Of a DNA stretch of 64,000 bases, positions 14,569-22,261 are shown piece by piece. Every line of letters starts with the position of its first letter. Within the stretch, counting starts at the first letter, position 1. Where the stretch lies: assembly GCF_000248055.1 (NCBI RefSeq), contig NZ_BAFC01000004.1:1-64000 (forward strand), written 5' to 3'. The notes under the pieces were generated by a model. The model saw nothing but the letters and a program-made list of their open reading frames with translations, ran no database searches and had not been told where the DNA came from. The DNA comes from Gordonia sputi NBRC 100414. GTDB taxonomy: Bacteria > Actinomycetota > Actinomycetes > Mycobacteriales > Mycobacteriaceae. The translations under genes were made by a program, and so were the position numbers.

Positions 14569-15249
14569 ATGACCGACGTGCGTGTGTTGGTGGTGGACGA
14601 CGACGTGCGGGCGGCCGAGACCATTCGTCGAGTGTTGGTCAGCGATGGGTGGAACGTGGCGGTCCTGCACGACGGCGCGCAGGCGCTACAGCGTGCCGTT
14701 GACGAGGAGTTCGACGCAGTGGTGCTCGACATCATGCTCCCCGGCCTCAACGGCTATGAGGTCGTCCGAGAGTTGCGTAGACAGTCGCAGTGGGTGCCGA
14801 TCGTGATGTTGTCGGCGAAAGACGGCGAGTACGACCAGGCCGAGGCGCTCGACTTCGGAGCCGACGACTACCTCGTCAAGCCGTTCTCCGTCGTCGTACT
14901 GAAGGCCCATCTACGGGCCGTCGCCAGACGCGGTCAGCGCGAGCGACCGGCGATACTCACGGCGGGATCGCTGTGTCTCGATCCCGCCCAACATGTCGTC
15001 ACGCGCCACGGGACGCCGATTACCCTCACTCCCCGCGAGTACGCAGTGCTTGAACTGCTGTTGCGTAATCAGGGTCGGGTGATGTCGAAACAAGCCATTC
15101 TCCAATCGGTGTGGGACGAGAATTACGACGGTGACCCGAACATCGTCGAGGTCTATATCGCCTACCTACGCAAGCGCATCGACGCCCCGTTCGGGATCGC
15201 GTCCATCGAGACGATCCGCGGCGCCGGGTACCGTCTGATCGCACTCTGA
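14569..15249 (+). CDS. OmpR/PhoB-family response regulator
   Basis: 226 residues. Receiver domain (1-120) with acidic pocket VVDDD (10-12), phosphoacceptor Asp54 in VVLDIMLPG, switch Ser in MLSAKD and Lys in YLVKPFS. OmpR-type winged helix (~130-226) with LTPREYAVLELLL, MSKQAILQSVWDENYDGDPN and RGAGYRLI. Partner of the convergent sensor kinase, whose 3' end overlaps this gene by 84 bp. Targets could include the P450 or the four-gene operon beyond the kinase. Confidence 0.93.
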   Translation: MTDVRVLVVDDDVRAAETIRRVLVSDGWNVAVLHDGAQALQRAVDEEFDAVVLDIMLPGLNGYEVVRELRRQSQWVPIVMLSAKDGEYDQAEALDFGADDYLVKPFSVVVLKAHLRAVARRGQRERPAILTAGSLCLDPAQHVVTRHGTPITLTPREYAVLELLLRNQGRVMSKQAILQSVWDENYDGDPNIVEVYIAYLRKRIDAPFGIASIETIRGAGYRLIAL

Positions 15250-16698
15250 ACGGCTCCCTGCTTCTTCGGAACCATCTGACGAGTGCCCTAGTGGCAGAAC
15301 GAGTTCGACGGTGGCGCCGCCGTGTCTGCCGTCGACGGCTGAGACCGAACCACCATGGGCCCGCGCGATCTCGTACGCGATTGCCAAGCCGAGACCGGCT
15401 CCCGACGAGTCACGCTGACGGTCGACGTCGAGTCGCGAGAACCTGTCGAAGATCATCGATCGGCGGTCGACGGGGATGCCGGGCCCGTCATCGCTGACCG
15501 CGATGACCGCATTCGATTCATCGGAGTGCAGCGAAACCCACACCGCCGAATCGCTGTGCCTGGCGGCGTTGTCGACGAGGTTGCGCACGGCGCGTCGAAT
15601 CATCTCTGCGTCGCCTGAGACTCGAACGGGCACAATGCGTGCGGTCACCTTCGCCGCACCCATGGCACGCAGCCGTGCGACCTCCCCGACGACCACGTCG
15701 TCGAGGTCCACGTCGCCGGCGGTGACTGTCAGACCCCGTTCGTCAGCGCGTGCCAGAAGGAGCAGATCTTCTGCCATGGCCTGCATCCGACGCGCCTCGG
15801 GCAGGAGGATGGTGCGGACGGTTTCCACATCGATCGGCGACGACGTGTCGTCGGCAAGGTCGAGCAAACCCACCAGTGTCGTCAGTGGACTTCGCAATTC
15901 ATGCGACGCGTCGCCGATGAAACGCAGTTGCGACTCCCGCCCGCGTTGGAGTCGCCCGAGCATGCTGTTGACGGTGACCGCGAGCGTGCGGATCTCGTCG
16001 TCCGCGGTCGGCACGGGGACTCGCTGCTCGAGCTCGGTGGAGGTGATCTCGTTGGTCTGCTTGATGATACGCGAGACAGGCCGAAGCGACCGACCGACGA
16101 GCAGGTAGACCGCACCTGCTCCGAGTGCCACGATGATCGGCAGTTCGATCGCCATGAGCGTCGCGGTCGTCCACTCACTGCTCCTGATGCCGGTTGCCTT
16201 GTCGAGCGCGAGGATCGTGTACTCGCGGCCGTCGTGATAGGCAGTGCTCACCGACGCGCAGAACTCGTCGCCGTACCCGGGAACACTGACGTTGTCGGCG
16301 TAGCGTGCCGTCGATTCGTCGGGAGTGGAGTGGCTCGCCAACCGAATCGGCGAGCGAGGAGCTCCGGGCGACGCAGCCACCACCACTCCCCTGTCGTCGA
16401 CGACCTGTGTGATGTCGATACCCGCGCCGGGAGTGAGATCGTCGGGATCCACTGCCGACACGCCACCACGGTTGACCGCGGTAGCGATCTGATACGCCTG
16501 CCGACCCGTCGCGCGGTACATCTGCGCCGTGTTCTCTCGATGCAGCATCAACAACATGACTCCCCCGCTGAGAGCCAGTGCGGCGACGAGTATGACCGCT
16601 GAAACGATCGTCAGCTGCGCGCGGACACCGAAACCACTGATTCGCTTGCGAAGACGTCTGGTTACGGTCACGAACTCATCCAATGCGCGTTCGACCAC
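15166..16698 (-). CDS. Sensor histidine kinase
   Basis: 510 residues from a GTG. Layout: cytoplasmic tail, TM1 (AQLTIVSAVILVAALALSGG), an extracytoplasmic sensor of ~110 residues, TM2 (TATLMAIELPIIVALGAGAV), HAMP (RSLRPVSRIIKQTNEITSTE), HisKA with ASHELRSPL, and HATPase_c with DNAARHSD (N box), DDGPGIP (G1) and GAGLGLAIAYEIARAHGG. The sequence continues ~35 polar residues past the usual end and overlaps the response regulator tail-to-tail. Convergent pairing of kinase and regulator is less common than an operon. The stimulus is unknown. Confidence 0.9.
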   Translation of the reverse strand: MVERALDEFVTVTRRLRKRISGFGVRAQLTIVSAVILVAALALSGGVMLLMLHRENTAQMYRATGRQAYQIATAVNRGGVSAVDPDDLTPGAGIDITQVVDDRGVVVAASPGAPRSPIRLASHSTPDESTARYADNVSVPGYGDEFCASVSTAYHDGREYTILALDKATGIRSSEWTTATLMAIELPIIVALGAGAVYLLVGRSLRPVSRIIKQTNEITSTELEQRVPVPTADDEIRTLAVTVNSMLGRLQRGRESQLRFIGDASHELRSPLTTLVGLLDLADDTSSPIDVETVRTILLPEARRMQAMAEDLLLLARADERGLTVTAGDVDLDDVVVGEVARLRAMGAAKVTARIVPVRVSGDAEMIRRAVRNLVDNAARHSDSAVWVSLHSDESNAVIAVSDDGPGIPVDRRSMIFDRFSRLDVDRQRDSSGAGLGLAIAYEIARAHGGSVSAVDGRHGGATVELVLPLGHSSDGSEEAGSRSECDQTVPGAADRLDGRDPERGVDALA

Positions 16699-16805
16699 CG
16701 ATCGGGTCGCTGGTAGGTCGTGGACGTCAGTGTATTGCGTCCTCGCCAGAATCGACAGGAGCCGGTTTCAGCCAACCTTCAGGTACCCGAGGGCACGCTG
16801 GCACC

Positions 16806-18491
16806 ATGACCGGTCGTCAGAATGTCGCGGAGCACGTCCTCGTGAGTGCCCAACAGCGCGGAGTCACCCACGTTTTCGGCGTGCACGGCGCGAACATCGA
16901 GGACATGTACGACGCCGCGGCACGACTCGGCATGCCCACGGTGGTCGCCAAGCACGAGTTCGCCGCGGGAGCGATGGCAGACGGGGTGGCGCGGATGACC
17001 GACTCGCCGTCGATGGTCATCACCACCTCGGGTGGCGGTTCGATGAATGTCGTTCCGGCACTGGCCGAATCGTACGACAGCAGGGTTCCGGTGCTTGCCG
17101 TGATCGGCGTCGCACCGACAGCGCTCACCGCCCGGGGCGCGTTCCAGGACATGCTCGACGCGCCCGACACCATCGACCTGATGGGCGTGCTGCGATCGGT
17201 GACCGGCCACGCCGAACTCGTCACGCACACAACCGAGCTCGGGCCCGCGCTGAAATCAGCGTTCGACACCCTCGATCGGGGATTGCCCGCCGCCCTGGTG
17301 ATCCCCAAAGACGTGCAGTCGCAGTCGATGTGGGAGAGCACAAATCAGCCACCCCCCTCGTCGGGCACAGACAGCGGACGTATCGACAGCGGACGTATCG
17401 ACACGGACGAACTGACCATGCTCGCGCGACAACTCGCTGACGCTGTCGCAGACGGTGCACGCATCTGTCTCTGGCTGGGCGACGAGGCATCACGGGCACG
17501 CGTGGGAAACACAGTGCAACGGTTGGCTTCTCGGTTGGGTGCGACGATCGTTGCGTCGCCCGGCGGAGCGGATACCACCGACACCCGCTCGGGACACGCG
17601 GGCATCACCGGCGTCATGGGGCATCCGTCTGCGCGCGAAGCACTCACGTCGGCGTCGATCTGTGTCAGTATCGGCTGCCGCATGACAGCCACCGATCGCG
17701 GAGGTCTCGATCCGGCGCTCGATGACCTCGAGATCGTGCACATCGGGCGCCACAGCGCACGCCCGACCCGTGGCACGTCGATCGTCGGTTCGCTGCCGAA
17801 TACGCTGTCGTACCTCGACGCCGAACTGGAACGACTGGGAGTCGACGAGCAGAGTGTGCCCACTGTCGGGATCGAATACCTCGACACCCCAACGGTTCCC
17901 GAGTCTCGGCTTCCCCACCTGCGAGAGATCATGGATACGATCGCCGACGCCCTTCCCGAGAGTGCGATCCTGTTTGCCGACGCAGGCAACGTCGGCGCGG
18001 CCGCGATCCACTACCTCACGCCGGTCACCGACGGACGGTTCACAGTCGCTCTCGGTATGGGCGGTATGGGTTACGCGATCGCGGCAGGGATCGGTGCGGC
18101 GATCGGACCGGCAGCGGACGGGAGGACGGTGATCGTCGCGGGCGACGGCGCTTTCTTCATGCACGGCATGGAGTTTCACACCGCCGTCGAGTATGACGCG
18201 CCGGTCACTCTTGTCATCCTCAACAATGACGCGCACGGCATGTGCGTCACACGGGAGAGCCTGTACTTCCCCGACACTCCGAGCGTGAACCGATTCAGAC
18301 CAACCGACATCGCACGCGGCATGGCCGCCATGTTCTCCAACGTCGAGGTCCGCCATCCCGGCGACCTGCATGAACTGAGAGCCGACGCTGCCGAACTCTT
18401 CTCCGCCACAGGGCCGAACGCACTCGTCGTCGACTGCGATCCGGACGAAATACCACCGTTCCTACCGTTTCTGCAGAAAGGACTCCGATGA
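16806..18491 (+). CDS. Thiamine-diphosphate-dependent enzyme, acetolactate-synthase-like
   Basis: 561 residues. N-terminal PYR domain with the cofactor-activating Glu51 (VVAKHEFAAGAMADG), a middle domain (~200-340), and a C-terminal PP domain with GDGAFFMHGMEFHTAVEY and ILNN (Mg/ThDP motif GDG...NN). The family decarboxylates 2-oxo acids and either releases an aldehyde or joins the C2 unit to a second carbonyl. The linker after VPKDVQ-like residues carries an in-frame SGRID repeat. First gene of four coupled genes; its TGA overlaps the next ATG. A carboligase or decarboxylase supplying a hydroxyketone or aldehyde for the later enzymes is my inference; it is unlikely to be the housekeeping acetolactate synthase because of this context. 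Confidence 0.85.
   Translation: MTGRQNVAEHVLVSAQQRGVTHVFGVHGANIEDMYDAAARLGMPTVVAKHEFAAGAMADGVARMTDSPSMVITTSGGGSMNVVPALAESYDSRVPVLAVIGVAPTALTARGAFQDMLDAPDTIDLMGVLRSVTGHAELVTHTTELGPALKSAFDTLDRGLPAALVIPKDVQSQSMWESTNQPPPSSGTDSGRIDSGRIDTDELTMLARQLADAVADGARICLWLGDEASRARVGNTVQRLASRLGATIVASPGGADTTDTRSGHAGITGVMGHPSAREALTSASICVSIGCRMTATDRGGLDPALDDLEIVHIGRHSARPTRGTSIVGSLPNTLSYLDAELERLGVDEQSVPTVGIEYLDTPTVPESRLPHLREIMDTIADALPESAILFADAGNVGAAAIHYLTPVTDGRFTVALGMGGMGYAIAAGIGAAIGPAADGRTVIVAGDGAFFMHGMEFHTAVEYDAPVTLVILNNDAHGMCVTRESLYFPDTPSVNRFRPTDIARGMAAMFSNVEVRHPGDLHELRADAAELFSATGPNALVVDCDPDEIPPFLPFLQKGLR
17370..17399. repeat. 15-bp in-frame tandem duplication (two copies)
   Basis: GACAGCGGACGTATC is repeated twice back to back, encoding DSGRI-DSGRI in the interdomain linker of the ThDP enzyme. 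Confidence 0.9.
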
Positions 18492-19153
18492 CCATCGAGA
18501 CCACACCGCTGGCCGACCTCGGCCGGCAAGCCGCCGAGCTCGACGGGTTGACCCGCATCGAGACACACCCACGACAGACCGCCACACCGATCATTCTCGA
18601 CATGCTGCGATCGGTCTATCCGCACGACCAGATCTACGGCGACTTCTGTCCGGTGCAGGGATACGTCGACGCACCGCCTCGCGAACTCTACGAATGGCTC
18701 TCCGACACAAGGTCTCTCGAGGAGTGGACCTACAGTCTCCGCGGATTCACACCGACCGACGAGCCGGGGCTGTGGCTTGCGTCGGACAGACTCGGCGACG
18801 CCACCGACATCTACACGCGGACGGTCGCCAACCCCGACGCGATGACCGTCGACTATCACTGCGCGTGGGATCAGGGCAAACACCTGTGGATGATCTACCT
18901 GATGCGCGTGGTCGACGCACAGGTCGTGCTCAATAAGCCGGGGTCGGTGGTGCTGTGGACCAATTGCCGACATCCGTTCTATGAGCGAAATCCGTACCCG
19001 GAAACGGCACCGGCCGACCGGCCGGTCTGGGTCGGCGACTTCTGGGACATGTTCGCCGCAGGACACCAGCTCGAACTGAACAATCTCACCGCGATCGCCG
19101 AGTATCGGCACGCCAACAATCTGCCCCTCACCCCCGATTGGATGCGCTCATGA
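18488..19153 (+). CDS. START/SRPBCC-like protein of unknown function
   Basis: 221 residues. The segment GYVDAPPRELYEWLSDTRSL followed by EEWTYSLRGF matches the beginning of an SRPBCC (START-like) helix-grip domain, and the rest (DYHCAWDQGKHLWMIYLMRV, SVVLWTNCRHPFY) fits its beta-sheet and C-terminal helix. SRPBCC proteins bind hydrophobic ligands; some are polyketide cyclases/aromatases. The start (AAAGGACTCCG before ATG) overlaps the ThDP gene stop as ATGA, and its own stop overlaps the KAS gene as ATGA, so all products are made together. Ligand or catalytic role is unknown; a cyclase or intermediate-binding role fits the operon. Confidence 0.72.
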   Translation: MTIETTPLADLGRQAAELDGLTRIETHPRQTATPIILDMLRSVYPHDQIYGDFCPVQGYVDAPPRELYEWLSDTRSLEEWTYSLRGFTPTDEPGLWLASDRLGDATDIYTRTVANPDAMTVDYHCAWDQGKHLWMIYLMRVVDAQVVLNKPGSVVLWTNCRHPFYERNPYPETAPADRPVWVGDFWDMFAAGHQLELNNLTAIAEYRHANNLPLTPDWMRS

Positions 19154-20184
19154 ACAACCCGACTGCACCCGCCGTCGTCCTCGCCGACGTCGCGGGATAT
19201 CTCCCCGAGAATCGCGTTCCGGCATCCTATTTCAGCCAGTTCGCCGAGAACGACGACCTCGCCGACAACATCATGTTCTCGGCGCCCGCGTTCCGGCACC
19301 ACGCAGCGGAAGGCGAGACGTCGGCCGATATGATGCTCTCTGCCGCAAGAACTCTCACGGAGAGGCACGGCGACGACTACCTCGATGACGTCACGGTTGT
19401 CCTGACGCACAGCCAACTTCCCGAGGTACCGGTCCGCGGATGCGGTGGCGAACTCGCCGACCGTCTCGGTCTGCGACCCACCACGGTTCTCGACGTCCAC
19501 AACGGCGGCTGCACCGCATTCATCCACATGATCGATCTCGCTGCCGCGCTGCTCGCGGCGGCGGGCGGCGGCAAGGCGTTGCTGGGATTGGCGCAGAACA
19601 GCGCATCACAGATCTTCACGCAGGAGCAGGTTCGCGGCAAGGCACAGGCCGCGATCCCCGGTGACGGCGCGGCAGCCGCCGTGGTGAGCCTCGACGATCC
19701 GGCAGGCTCCCCCGTCCTCGGACTGGTCACCCACTCGTACGGCGAGTACTCGGCCGACATGACATCGGTCGCAGAACCCGACCGTCGATACTGGGAAGCA
19801 GGTACCGGGGAGATCCACATCGGCTTCACCGAAGCGAAGATCACCAAGGTTCTCGCGCGCGGCAATCGCATGGTCCCCGCCGCTGCCATCGAAGTGGCCG
19901 ACTCCATCGACATTCGGCCGTCCGAGCTCGATTGGTTCATCACCAACCAGCCGAACCGCATCTTTCTACGCAACTGGCGCGAGGCGCTCGAACTCCCCGC
20001 CGAGCGACACCCGGACACCTTCGACGAGTGCGGAAACCTGTTCGGCGTCGGACTCCCGATCACCCTCGACACCGCGGTGTCCGACGGGCGCATCCAGCCC
20101 GGTGACGTCGTCATGATGTCGGCGTTCGCCCACGCGGGAGATTTCGCCGGAGCGGCAGCGATTCGTTGGTCGGATCGTCACTAG
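19150..20184 (+). CDS. Beta-ketoacyl-ACP synthase III-like enzyme with altered active site
   Basis: 344 residues, thiolase fold. The nucleophile Cys121 is present in LDVHNGGCTAFIHMID and Asn296 in DECGNLFGVGLPI, but the catalytic His of the usual HQAN motif is Asn266 (DWFITNQPNRIF). That suggests it is not an ordinary decarboxylating FabH; acyltransferase or alternative condensation chemistry is more likely, as in CerJ/PqsBC-like relatives. FabH-like conserved GDGAAA is retained. Starts at ATG overlapping the upstream TGA; ends TAG overlapping the GTG of the aminotransferase. Confidence 0.82.
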   Translation: MNNPTAPAVVLADVAGYLPENRVPASYFSQFAENDDLADNIMFSAPAFRHHAAEGETSADMMLSAARTLTERHGDDYLDDVTVVLTHSQLPEVPVRGCGGELADRLGLRPTTVLDVHNGGCTAFIHMIDLAAALLAAAGGGKALLGLAQNSASQIFTQEQVRGKAQAAIPGDGAAAAVVSLDDPAGSPVLGLVTHSYGEYSADMTSVAEPDRRYWEAGTGEIHIGFTEAKITKVLARGNRMVPAAAIEVADSIDIRPSELDWFITNQPNRIFLRNWREALELPAERHPDTFDECGNLFGVGLPITLDTAVSDGRIQPGDVVMMSAFAHAGDFAGAAAIRWSDRH

Positions 20185-21191
20185 TGCTCGCCGACAACAT
20201 GATTCGACTCAATCTCAACGAATCCGCGTATCCGCCATTGCCTGCGGTCGCCGAGGTGCTCCATGAACAGGTGCTGTCGGCGCACCGCTACCCGGAGTTC
20301 ACACCGCACGGTTCCCGTCGTGTCATCGCACACCATCTGGGCGTGTCCGACGATATGGTCACCGTCGGCGCTGGAGCAACCGGAGTCATCTTCCAGGCAC
20401 TGCAGGCAGCTCTCGACCACCACGGGGGCGTCGTGCCCGAGTTGGTGACCGCGACCCCGACATTCGACGGATTCCCCATCCTCGCGCAGTTGCTGCGCAT
20501 GGACTTTCGCGGTGTGCCGCTCGATCGCTTCGGCGGCGTCGACCTCGACGCGCTGCGCACCTCCGTCACCGCGGCCACCGTCGCAGTGATCGTCTGCTCA
20601 CCACACAACCCGACGGGTACGGTCGTCGACGAACGCGAACTACATGCGTTCCTGACGTCACTGCCAGACCACGTGACGGTCATTCTCGATCAGGCCTACA
20701 TCGAGTTCAGCACTGCCGCACCAGATCTGCACCGGCTGGTCGCACTGCATCCCCGCCTGGTGGTCGTCCGAACCTTCAGCAAGGCACACGGTCTCGCGGC
20801 TCTGCGGGTTGGATATGGCGTCGGTGACGAGCGGCTCATGTCGGGCATCCGTCGCTTCGAGATTCCCTTCGCCGTGAGTGCGCCGGCCCAAGCCGCGGTG
20901 CCGGTGGCATTGGCCGCGACGACCGCGCTCGCGCACCGGGTCGAGGCGATGCGCGCCGCGCGTGATCGGCTCTCCGCGCAACTGCACGCGATAGGTGCGT
21001 CGACCATTGCGGGTGAGGGCAACTTCGTCTATCTGCCCGGCGCGGACGGAGTGGCGCTCGGCTCACTGCTCGGCACCTGCGGCGTTGCGGTCAAGACCGT
21101 TCCCGGTCACGGCGTCCGGATCACCGTCGGCGACACCTTCAGCAACGCGCGTGTACTGGCCGCATTGCGCGCGACGGCAGCAACTGCCTGA
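20184..21191 (+). CDS. HisC-like class I/II aminotransferase
   Basis: 335 residues from the GTG overlapping the upstream stop (an ATG at 20199 is the alternative). PLP fold type I: LNLNESAYPPLP near the start, CSPHNPTGT, DQAYIEF (Asp to pyridine N) and the Schiff-base Lys in VVRTFSKAHGLAALRVGYG, closest to histidinol-phosphate/aromatic aminotransferases and CobD-type decarboxylases. The genuine hisC would lie in a his operon, so this is a pathway-specific copy. It probably aminates a ketone or supplies/uses an amino acid in the operon's product pathway. The last codons form the first unit of a 16-bp tandem repeat. Confidence 0.85.
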   Translation: MLADNMIRLNLNESAYPPLPAVAEVLHEQVLSAHRYPEFTPHGSRRVIAHHLGVSDDMVTVGAGATGVIFQALQAALDHHGGVVPELVTATPTFDGFPILAQLLRMDFRGVPLDRFGGVDLDALRTSVTAATVAVIVCSPHNPTGTVVDERELHAFLTSLPDHVTVILDQAYIEFSTAAPDLHRLVALHPRLVVVRTFSKAHGLAALRVGYGVGDERLMSGIRRFEIPFAVSAPAQAAVPVALAATTALAHRVEAMRAARDRLSAQLHAIGASTIAGEGNFVYLPGADGVALGSLLGTCGVAVKTVPGHGVRITVGDTFSNARVLAALRATAATA

Positions 21192-21228: not shown

Positions 21229-21753
21229 TCAGCGTCCCGACGCGAAGATCTGCTCGAGCACGTCGGGGAGTTCGGTGAAGGGTCCGGGAAAGAACTGCTC
21301 GTTGATGAAGAAGGCGGGTGTGCCGTTGACACCGCTGCGGAGTCCGCTGTTGATCTGACCCTGGATACGATCACCGAACTGCTGCGCACTCACCGCAGCC
21401 TCCGCTGCGGCGGCGTCCAGTCCGAGACTCGACGCCAACGCGCGGTAGAAGCCGTCGCCGAGCTGATCCTGGTTCTCATACAGCGCGTCGTGCGCCTCCC
21501 AGAACTTGCCCTGGCTACCGGCGTATTCGGCGACCTCCGCGGCTGCAAGTGCCTCCGGGTGGATCTCGGGAATCGGGAAGTTGCGAAAGACGAATCGCAG
21601 CGAGTCGGGGTAGGTGCGCTGGATCTGCTTGACGATCGGATAGGCCTGCCCGCAGTAGGAACACTGATAGTCGCCGTACTCGACGAGTGTGAGAGCGGCG
21701 TCGGACGGTCCCTGAATGTAGTCGTCGGATCCCACGGGTTGGGTCAGCGGCAT
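21229..21753 (-). CDS. DsbA-family thioredoxin-fold protein
   Basis: 174 residues, thioredoxin_4/DsbA-like fold with CSYC active site (GDYQCSYCGQAYP), helical insertion and the cis-Pro loop VNGTPAFFINEQFF. No signal peptide is visible, so a cytoplasmic oxidoreductase is expected, unlike secreted DsbA. ATG with GAGGAGC upstream. It lies 10 bp downstream of a peroxiredoxin gene on the same strand, suggesting a redox pair in which this protein may act as reductant or in disulfide repair (inference). Confidence 0.85.
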   Translation of the reverse strand: MPLTQPVGSDDYIQGPSDAALTLVEYGDYQCSYCGQAYPIVKQIQRTYPDSLRFVFRNFPIPEIHPEALAAAEVAEYAGSQGKFWEAHDALYENQDQLGDGFYRALASSLGLDAAAAEAAVSAQQFGDRIQGQINSGLRSGVNGTPAFFINEQFFPGPFTELPDVLEQIFASGR

Positions 21754-21763
21754 GGTCGGCTCC

Positions 21764-22261
21764 TCACGCGTTCTTGTTCTTGAGGGCTTCGAGGGCGTCG
21801 AGAACCCCGTTCACACCCGGGTTGATGGCCATCGGCGACAGGTAGCTCCACGAGATGACACCGTCTGCGTCGACGACGAACAGCGCGCGCTTGGAGCATC
21901 CGGCCTGTTCGTCGTACGCGCCGTACTCCTTCGAGACCGCACCCTTGGGGTTGTAGTCGGCAAGCAGGTCGTAGCCGAGCTTGCGCGACTCCTTGAACGC
22001 CTGATGGCTCCACGCGCTGTCGACCGAGATGCCGAGGAGTACGGCGCGGTACTCCTGCAGCAGCGGCAGCGACTGGTTGAACACGGCGAGTTCGTCACCG
22101 CACACCTGACTCCAGTCGGCGGGATAGAAGACGAGGACAACAGGATTGCCCTTGAGTTCTGAGAGGCTCAGCGACTGATCGGGCGTCGCCTTGAGGGTGA
22201 AATCGGGCGCGGTGGTACCGGCCTCAAGGATGCTGTCGGGTGCGGTGCTTGTATCGGCCAT
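21764..22261 (-). CDS. Peroxiredoxin (AhpC/TSA, BCP-like)
   Basis: 165 residues with thioredoxin fold. The peroxidatic-site segment FYPADWSQVCGDEL places Cys54 where Prx family members have PxxxTxxC; here the Thr/Ser two-residue position is Ser51, an allowed variant. Downstream LGISVDSAWSHQAFKE and KRALFVVDADGVI are typical. A second Cys (AGCSKRA, ~residue 122) could act as resolving cysteine. Reduces H2O2 or organic hydroperoxides in the cytoplasm. Operon with the DsbA-like gene. Confidence 0.88.
   Translation of the reverse strand: MADTSTAPDSILEAGTTAPDFTLKATPDQSLSLSELKGNPVVLVFYPADWSQVCGDELAVFNQSLPLLQEYRAVLLGISVDSAWSHQAFKESRKLGYDLLADYNPKGAVSKEYGAYDEQAGCSKRALFVVDADGVISWSYLSPMAINPGVNGVLDALEALKNKNA

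Follow-up and report, generated by a model that had tools for sequence, protein, structure and literature searches.

What could a thiamine diphosphate (ThDP)-dependent enzyme, a START-like protein, an altered homologue of β-ketoacyl-acyl carrier protein synthase III (KAS III), and an aminotransferase produce together? This question is raised by a compact operon (positions 16806 to 21191) of Gordonia sputi NBRC 100414, located in the first 64,000 nucleotides of contig NZ_BAFC01000004.1 (assembly GCF_000248055.1), the stretch analyzed here and referred to as the window. A sequence-only reading had suggested a compact route to a small molecule, such as an aminated ketone, an N-acyl product, or a heterocycle, and had matched the combination to no named pathway. 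The present analysis indicates, with a probability of about 0.68, that the operon would be a minimal carbazole-core cassette for lipophilic 1-alkyl-2-methylcarbazole antioxidants, induced by envelope or redox stress.

Kinship with the carbazole-core cassettes

The operon consisted of four overlapping open reading frames (ORFs) on the plus strand, with ATGA, ATGA, and TAGTG at the successive junctions; these coordinates bear out the single transcriptional unit of the sequence-only reading, and its enzyme family assignments were upheld by Pfam. The first gene (16806 to 18491; 561 amino acids) encodes a ThDP-dependent carboligase (TPP_enzyme_N, TPP_enzyme_M, and TPP_enzyme_C; best PDB match BbmA), the putative counterpart of CqsB3 and NzsH. 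It is followed by a START/Bet v1-like carbazole-synthase homologue (18488 to 19153; 221 amino acids), corresponding to CqsB2 and NzsI, a KAS III-like acyl-condensing enzyme with a FabH-like fold (19150 to 20184; 344 amino acids; ACP_syn_III and ACP_syn_III_C), corresponding to CqsB1 and NzsJ, and a HisC/Pat-like pyridoxal phosphate-dependent aminotransferase with a GTG start (20184 to 21191; 335 amino acids; Aminotran_1_2), corresponding to CqsB7. PigD/PigE-type routes also pair a ThDP carboligase with an aminotransferase, without a known START cyclase partner.

The START-like protein did not match any Pfam family, even at an E value of 10, nor any NCBIfam family. Among solved structures, the only strong match was the Streptomyces exfoliatus carbazole synthase CqsB2 (PDB 6ipv; phmmer E value of 3.9e-45), with 76 of 169 aligned residues identical. 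Similarly, Foldseek returned 6ipv as best match (E value of 4.2e-18) for the predicted cyclase model (mean predicted local distance difference test score of 75). Tyr144, Tyr172, His206, and Glu209, four of the five proposed catalytic residues of CqsB2, were retained in the window cyclase, and the fifth, Glu105, was replaced by Asp. Residues were counted over the distinct sequences from 141 loci, among which the cyclase was found in all and the KAS III-like enzyme in 138; the locus sets used here overlap, so that some loci are repeated within the sets of 120 and 141, and distinct counts are stated where made. Among 128 distinct cyclases not belonging to the Cqs type, Tyr144 was present in 126, Tyr172 in 127, His206 in 126, and Glu209 in 128; position 105 was Asp in all 128, versus Glu in 5/5 Cqs-type cyclases. 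The alteration noticed earlier in the KAS III-like enzyme was found as well, its catalytic Cys being kept and the His of the HQxN motif being replaced by Asn (TNQPN). Indeed, the catalytic Cys and Asn occurred in 130/130 distinct sequences, Cqs-type ones included, and the catalytic His was Asn in all 125 distinct non-Cqs proteins and His in all five Cqs-type ones. An enzyme of the KAS III kind that has lost its catalytic His would be worth studying in its own right.

The combination of enzymes can thus be named, namely as the pathway to the carbazole core of carquinostatin and neocarazostatin. As outlined in a review by Kobayashi and Kuzuyama (PMC7466098), the carquinostatin route starts with formation of indole-3-pyruvate by the aminotransferase CqsB7 and addition of pyruvate by the ThDP enzyme CqsB3; CqsB1, which is KAS III-like, then joins an acyl group to the product by condensation, and CqsB2 closes ring A. 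In the Cqs (carquinostatin, S. exfoliatus) and Nzs (neocarazostatin) clusters, genes for these four enzyme families likewise lie near one another, and the five Cqs-type loci fetched contain all four; in the window, too, the TPP-enzyme family gene adjoins the CqsB2 homologue. As the four families match the reconstituted carbazole-core pathway, the heterocycle and the compact small-molecule route of the sequence-only reading stand, and an aminated ketone or an N-acyl product becomes less likely. Several differences are consistent, however. The gene order is KAS-cyclase-ThDP followed at some distance by the aminotransferase in Cqs/Nzs, versus ThDP-cyclase-KAS-aminotransferase in the window; Glu105 is replaced by Asp and the KAS His by Asn in every non-Cqs sequence counted; and the window operon lacks a dedicated acyl carrier protein (ACP), a second KAS III, a prenyltransferase, and an isopentenyl diphosphate isomerase. 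Neither an ACP nor a second KAS III was found among the nine neighbours scanned (10.8 to 25.2 kb; small ORFs and the remaining window were left unscanned), and the operon itself leaves no space for them. Gene order, the changes at Glu105 and the KAS His, and the low identity of the KAS and ThDP proteins rule out plain membership of the Cqs/Nzs clusters; judged by sequence, the operon is a sister branch of that cassette. A further cluster with an aminotransferase, a ThDP enzyme, a KAS III, and an SRPBCC protein is chlCz (chlocarbazomycin, Streptomyces tubbatahanensis), for which a mono-hydroxyl carbazole intermediate is proposed to arise via the SRPBCC protein chlCz5 in a 2023 report (PMC10100901); it differs by its own ACP and oxidoreductases, and the likeness is drawn from the enzyme families as described there.

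Both branches occur in a genus taken to be Streptomyces, a label inferred from a 98% match to CqsB2 of S. exfoliatus. A search with a CqsB2 segment retrieved a homologue in 36 of its 392 genomes; five matches had 71 – 98% identity and the rest 41 – 49%, bar one 35-residue fragment. The order ThDP-cyclase-KAS was present in 14 of the 15 non-Cqs loci fetched, followed by an aminotransferase match in eight of those, and the fifteenth, which also has an aminotransferase, kept this order but had its ThDP match split in two. One genome (G1066) holds both types. In a tree of 40 cyclase rows, which left out most Streptomyces-type rows and contained one window-type locus (L205) from the inferred Streptomyces genus, the Cqs-type cyclases formed a single well-supported branch (100/99); the tree program warned of long branches meeting there, those of L074 and one more row with the five Cqs-type rows, and of an unsure placement of L074 and L076. 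The cyclase homologues of L074 and L075 stand without adjacent ThDP or KAS genes and have Phe and Asp at the positions of Tyr144 and His206, and perhaps catalyze a different reaction. Rearranged loci were also encountered (L076 and L077), in which the cyclase gene precedes the ThDP gene and the KAS and aminotransferase genes lie on the opposite strand. In three genomes (G018, G049, and G005), some cyclase copies contained an inner stop or were fragmented, which suggests decay of the operon in some genomes.

Occurrence and control of the operon

The cyclase was present in 34 of the 59 genomes of the same genus, in 102 of the 301 genomes and 16 of the 31 genera of the family, and in 14 of 396 genomes across the phylum, 13 of which belong to this family. 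The expectation that the gene order would recur outside this strain was confirmed: of 40 short loci from the same family (L003 to L042), 39 had ThDP-START-KAS-aminotransferase, the stretch of L033 lacking the aminotransferase. A collection with named sources yielded 541 matching stretches, 523 of them relatives, and among the best 80 of these 523 (the named loci), 71 had the complete ordered set (an additional ThDP gene was present in one of these), eight lacked the aminotransferase, and one consisted of cyclase and KAS only. Among 40 longer loci chosen by hand for variety, the order was complete in 25, of which one had a surplus KAS gene; eight were without aminotransferase, and seven were otherwise different. 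Genes in the 20-kb loci were located by tblastn.

In most Mycobacterium loci, the operon lies near genes for the sigma factor SigL and its partner RslA. Genus labels were assigned by hand, and Mycobacterium here includes metagenome-assembled genomes with Mycobacterium or Mycobacteriaceae in the title. The synteny mapA-sigL-rslA, which we take to be the M. tuberculosis gene order, was found at 42 of the 51 named Mycobacterium/Mycolicibacterium loci, with SigL-RslA at most 2.2 kb upstream in 31 and at 2.2 – 8.5 kb in 11 of the 51, and with mapA (read by eye from sequence, without a family search) in all 42; an overly short contig and a locus lacking the ThDP gene account for two of the other nine. 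In 34 of the 42 SigL-linked loci, the ThDP gene or sigL was preceded by the sequence TGAACC-N15-17-CGT, presumably SigL-like by a consensus attributed to Hahn 2005; neither TGAACC nor TGAAC occurred in the papers searched for it. The motif was also present in 4/4 Nocardia loci, with SigL-RslA at 2.2 – 8.5 kb and without a mapA found, and absent from the 8 Tsukamurella, 13 Gordonia, and single Williamsia named loci. When only the sequences before the ThDP gene were counted, 45 of 104 distinct ones contained it, whereas each of 179 permuted hexamers occurred in at most five. In the PDB, the M. triplex proteins retrieved M. tuberculosis SigL (5.5e-96) and, from entry 3hug, the RslA chain (9.4e-37). 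According to PMC2877774, oxidation lowers the affinity of RslA for SigL, and an abstract passage links M. tuberculosis SigL with cell-wall and polyketide genes. In some slow-growing mycobacteria (L112-like loci), a minus-strand SigL-like motif at about 8.2 kb faces the operon's own motif and, in L112, precedes an ABC-transporter-like gene pair read leftwards (labelled by eye).

The operon follows mapA-sigL-rslA with TGAACC-N16-CGT in many non-tuberculous mycobacteria, whereas the genus of the window has a two-component system instead and SigL above cut-off was absent from all 59 Gordonia genomes. In the window, this system comprises an OmpR-family response regulator (14569 to 15249, plus strand; Response_reg and Trans_reg_C), which recurs at this position in several Gordonia/Williamsia loci, and a sensor histidine kinase that points away from the operon (15166 to 16698, minus strand; HAMP, HisKA, and HATPase_c). 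A divergent kinase and a regulator preceded the operon in 10 of the 13 named Gordonia loci and in the one Williamsia locus, one of the three remaining Gordonia loci being a short contig; the system is a likely part of the locus, as the sequence-only reading had suspected. Between kinase and operon lies a direct repeat, TTTCAGC-N5-TTCAGG (16766 to 16783, plus strand), with an 11-bp period, a putative response-regulator box. Indeed, of 17 distinct two-component-type loci, a set assigned by hand from the neighbourhoods, 14 had TTCAG-N6-TTCAG just upstream of the ThDP start, versus none of 93 others; the three loci without it (L061, L063, and L078) had one-base variants of the repeat unit, by eye. 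In addition, CACGCT (16794 to 16799, plus strand), a possible -10 element (CANNNT) judged from the sequence and aligned relatives, stands six bases 5' of the ATG, suggesting a leaderless start. Three Gordonia copies without the two-component system (L058, L159, and L169) had the palindrome TTAGCTTA-CGC-TAAGCTAA in common upstream of the operon, perhaps a third type of control. Regulators of two unrelated stress-type kinds beside the same operon suggest that its product would be stress-protective.

Proposed route, alternatives, and meaning

From the Cqs and Nzs enzymes we infer the following route. The aminotransferase, which scores below the NCBIfam HisC cut-off and has a putative phenylalanine aminotransferase (4r2n) as best PDB match, probably converts tryptophan into indole-3-pyruvate. 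The ThDP enzyme would join indole-3-pyruvate and pyruvate, as CqsB3 does. The KAS III-like enzyme would take up an acyl group on Cys121 and condense it with the acid from the preceding step, with loss of CO2; as the tight operon contains neither a dedicated ACP nor a second KAS III, primary fatty acid metabolism is the probable source of the acyl group. The START-fold enzyme would then close ring A without a cofactor to yield a 1-alkyl-2-methylcarbazole. The product may be a lipophilic carbazole like the lipocarbazoles or carazostatin, quenching radicals in the membrane, and the operon would be induced by envelope or redox stress through the two-component system in Gordonia and through SigL-RslA in many Mycobacterium strains.

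A possible link with a known compound class is offered by Tsukamurella pseudospumae, from which antioxidative lipocarbazoles were reported according to the title of a paper. As described in PMC11350554, lipocarbazoles and carazostatin have a common 1-alkyl-2-methylcarbazole frame, which suits a cassette using a fatty acyl unit. The genome of T. pseudospumae JCM 13375 contained a single CqsB2 homologue, of the window type; the same query detected both types in G1066, so that a Cqs-type copy would probably have shown up. A flavodoxin-like gene preceded the ThDP gene directly in six of the eight named Tsukamurella loci (Pfam on the T. pseudospumae copy), and a gene read by eye, without a family search, as tryptophan-synthase-like lay about 3 – 6 kb downstream in seven of the eight.

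Several observations weigh against this proposal. The KAS and ThDP proteins were only 26 – 28% and 35 – 36% identical, respectively, to Cqs-type proteins (window-type queries against five Cqs-type loci), the superposition of the cyclase model on 6ipv was loose (template modelling score of 0.66; root mean square deviation of 17.6), and the aminotransferase resembles phenylalanine/histidinol-phosphate enzymes rather than a proven tryptophan enzyme. The replacement of His by Asn and of Glu by Asp could point to a different substrate or product. The lipocarbazole producer is strain Acta 1857 and not the sequenced JCM 13375. Moreover, all eight named Tsukamurella loci, which are the eight named loci without a nearby aminotransferase gene, had neither SigL-RslA nor the two-component system; the aminotransferase was retained in two genomes (G224 and G250) of the group containing Tsukamurella. 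Seven of the 51 Mycobacterium loci had no SigL-RslA nearby, one of them with the motif, and one Gordonia genome (G037) encoded a near-SigL protein (176 bits versus a cut-off of 202) but no cyclase. Finally, the redox genes flanking the window operon recurred in just two other genomes.

The foremost among the unlikely alternatives accepts a carbazole or related lipid and assigns it a role in signalling, pigmentation, or envelope structure instead of antioxidant protection. Two unrelated regulator types adjoin the operon, and the tie of M. tuberculosis SigL to cell-wall and polyketide genes would suit such a role, but RslA senses oxidation and lipocarbazoles are, by title, antioxidative. Next in order, and improbable too, the operon could use a short 3-hydroxyacyl unit to make the very ortho-quinone or catechol carbazole that CqsB1-B3 make, with neutral drift behind the sequence differences. 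The identity of the four families and the largely kept cyclase residues agree with this; yet the Asp/Glu (128/128 versus 5/5) and Asn/His (125/125 versus 5/5) differences split the branches without exception, the Cqs-type cyclases form one branch (100/99), G1066 keeps both types, and an ACP and a second KAS III are missing from the operon. A start from phenylpyruvate or another keto acid, giving a different ring such as a naphthalenoid one, follows as a likewise doubtful option: it would explain an aminotransferase nearest to phenylalanine/histidinol-phosphate enzymes and the distance of KAS and ThDP proteins from the Cqs type, but not the strong homology of the cyclase to CqsB2, nor that the sole CqsB2 homologue of the lipocarbazole species is of the window type. 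The tryptophan-synthase-like gene near seven of the eight Tsukamurella loci also argues against it, weakly, as this may be plain synteny. Very improbable is a gathering of duplicated housekeeping enzymes (acetolactate synthase, FabH, and HisC) without a dedicated pathway. Although the Pfam families are generic, scores fell under the cut-off of every NCBIfam family shown (the best 25 for the ThDP enzyme and the aminotransferase), gene order is kept across genera, and the ThDP and HisC-like proteins stood far from anything else encoded in the genome, the best other same-genome matches having 27%, 34%, and 25% identity, the first two for the ThDP enzyme and the aminotransferase. Distant paralogues and sub-cut-off scores led to the rejection of such duplicates.

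If the operon is a carbazole cassette for membrane antioxidants, its meaning would extend beyond this strain. It is conceivable, though at odds short of even, that many mycolic-acid bacteria, including many non-tuberculous mycobacteria, carry a membrane-carbazole antioxidant pathway with a Cys-Asn-Asn KAS III, that this pathway is the neighbouring and perhaps original target of SigL-RslA, and that the branch supplies the genes for mono-oxygenated carbazoles, such as lipocarbazole. Carbazole lipids would then be common among mycolic-acid bacteria and not a Streptomyces speciality, and the redox-sensing SigL-RslA would gain a concrete target in environmental mycobacteria. The 2020 review (PMC7466098) considers the machinery for mono-oxygenated carbazoles as still to be found and exemplifies conserved clusters by S. 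cattleya, Sorangium, and Scytonema; the present branch, found in the lipocarbazole species, offers candidate genes. No open-access paper tying the cassette to mycolic-acid bacteria was found by title or abstract, and one may be in print elsewhere.

Flanking genes and singular loci

Upstream of the two-component system, the window contains a cytochrome P450 gene (13149 to 14657, minus strand; PF00067; start uncertain, the ORF opening at 14750), a possible tailoring enzyme that the sequence-only reading had also noticed as a neighbour and that adjoins the operon in a subset of two-component-type loci. Downstream, genes for a DsbA-like thioredoxin (21229 to 21753, minus strand) and an AhpC/TSA peroxiredoxin (21764 to 22261, minus strand) were found, the membership of which is doubtful; apart from the window, G020 and G028/L111 were the only ones among 120 loci with these genes in the same position. 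The neighbourhoods of these 120 loci rule out the P450 and the thioredoxin/peroxiredoxin pair as constant members.

The nearest relative of the window operon (L053, from G020) was 96 – 98% identical in the cyclase, KAS, and aminotransferase versus 69% in the ThDP gene, which seems to have been swapped by recombination amid near-identical neighbours. One record titled Acidobacteriaceae (L093) contained the operon with a Gordonia-like two-component system, and its title is probably wrong. Two further loci (L208 and L209) had the operon less than 20 kb from carotenoid-like genes, labelled by eye: both have CrtI- and Rieske-like genes, and L208 a CrtY-like one in addition. This neighbourhood, promising at first in one Streptomyces-type locus, was found in just these two of 140 loci searched and thereby rejected as a locus feature.

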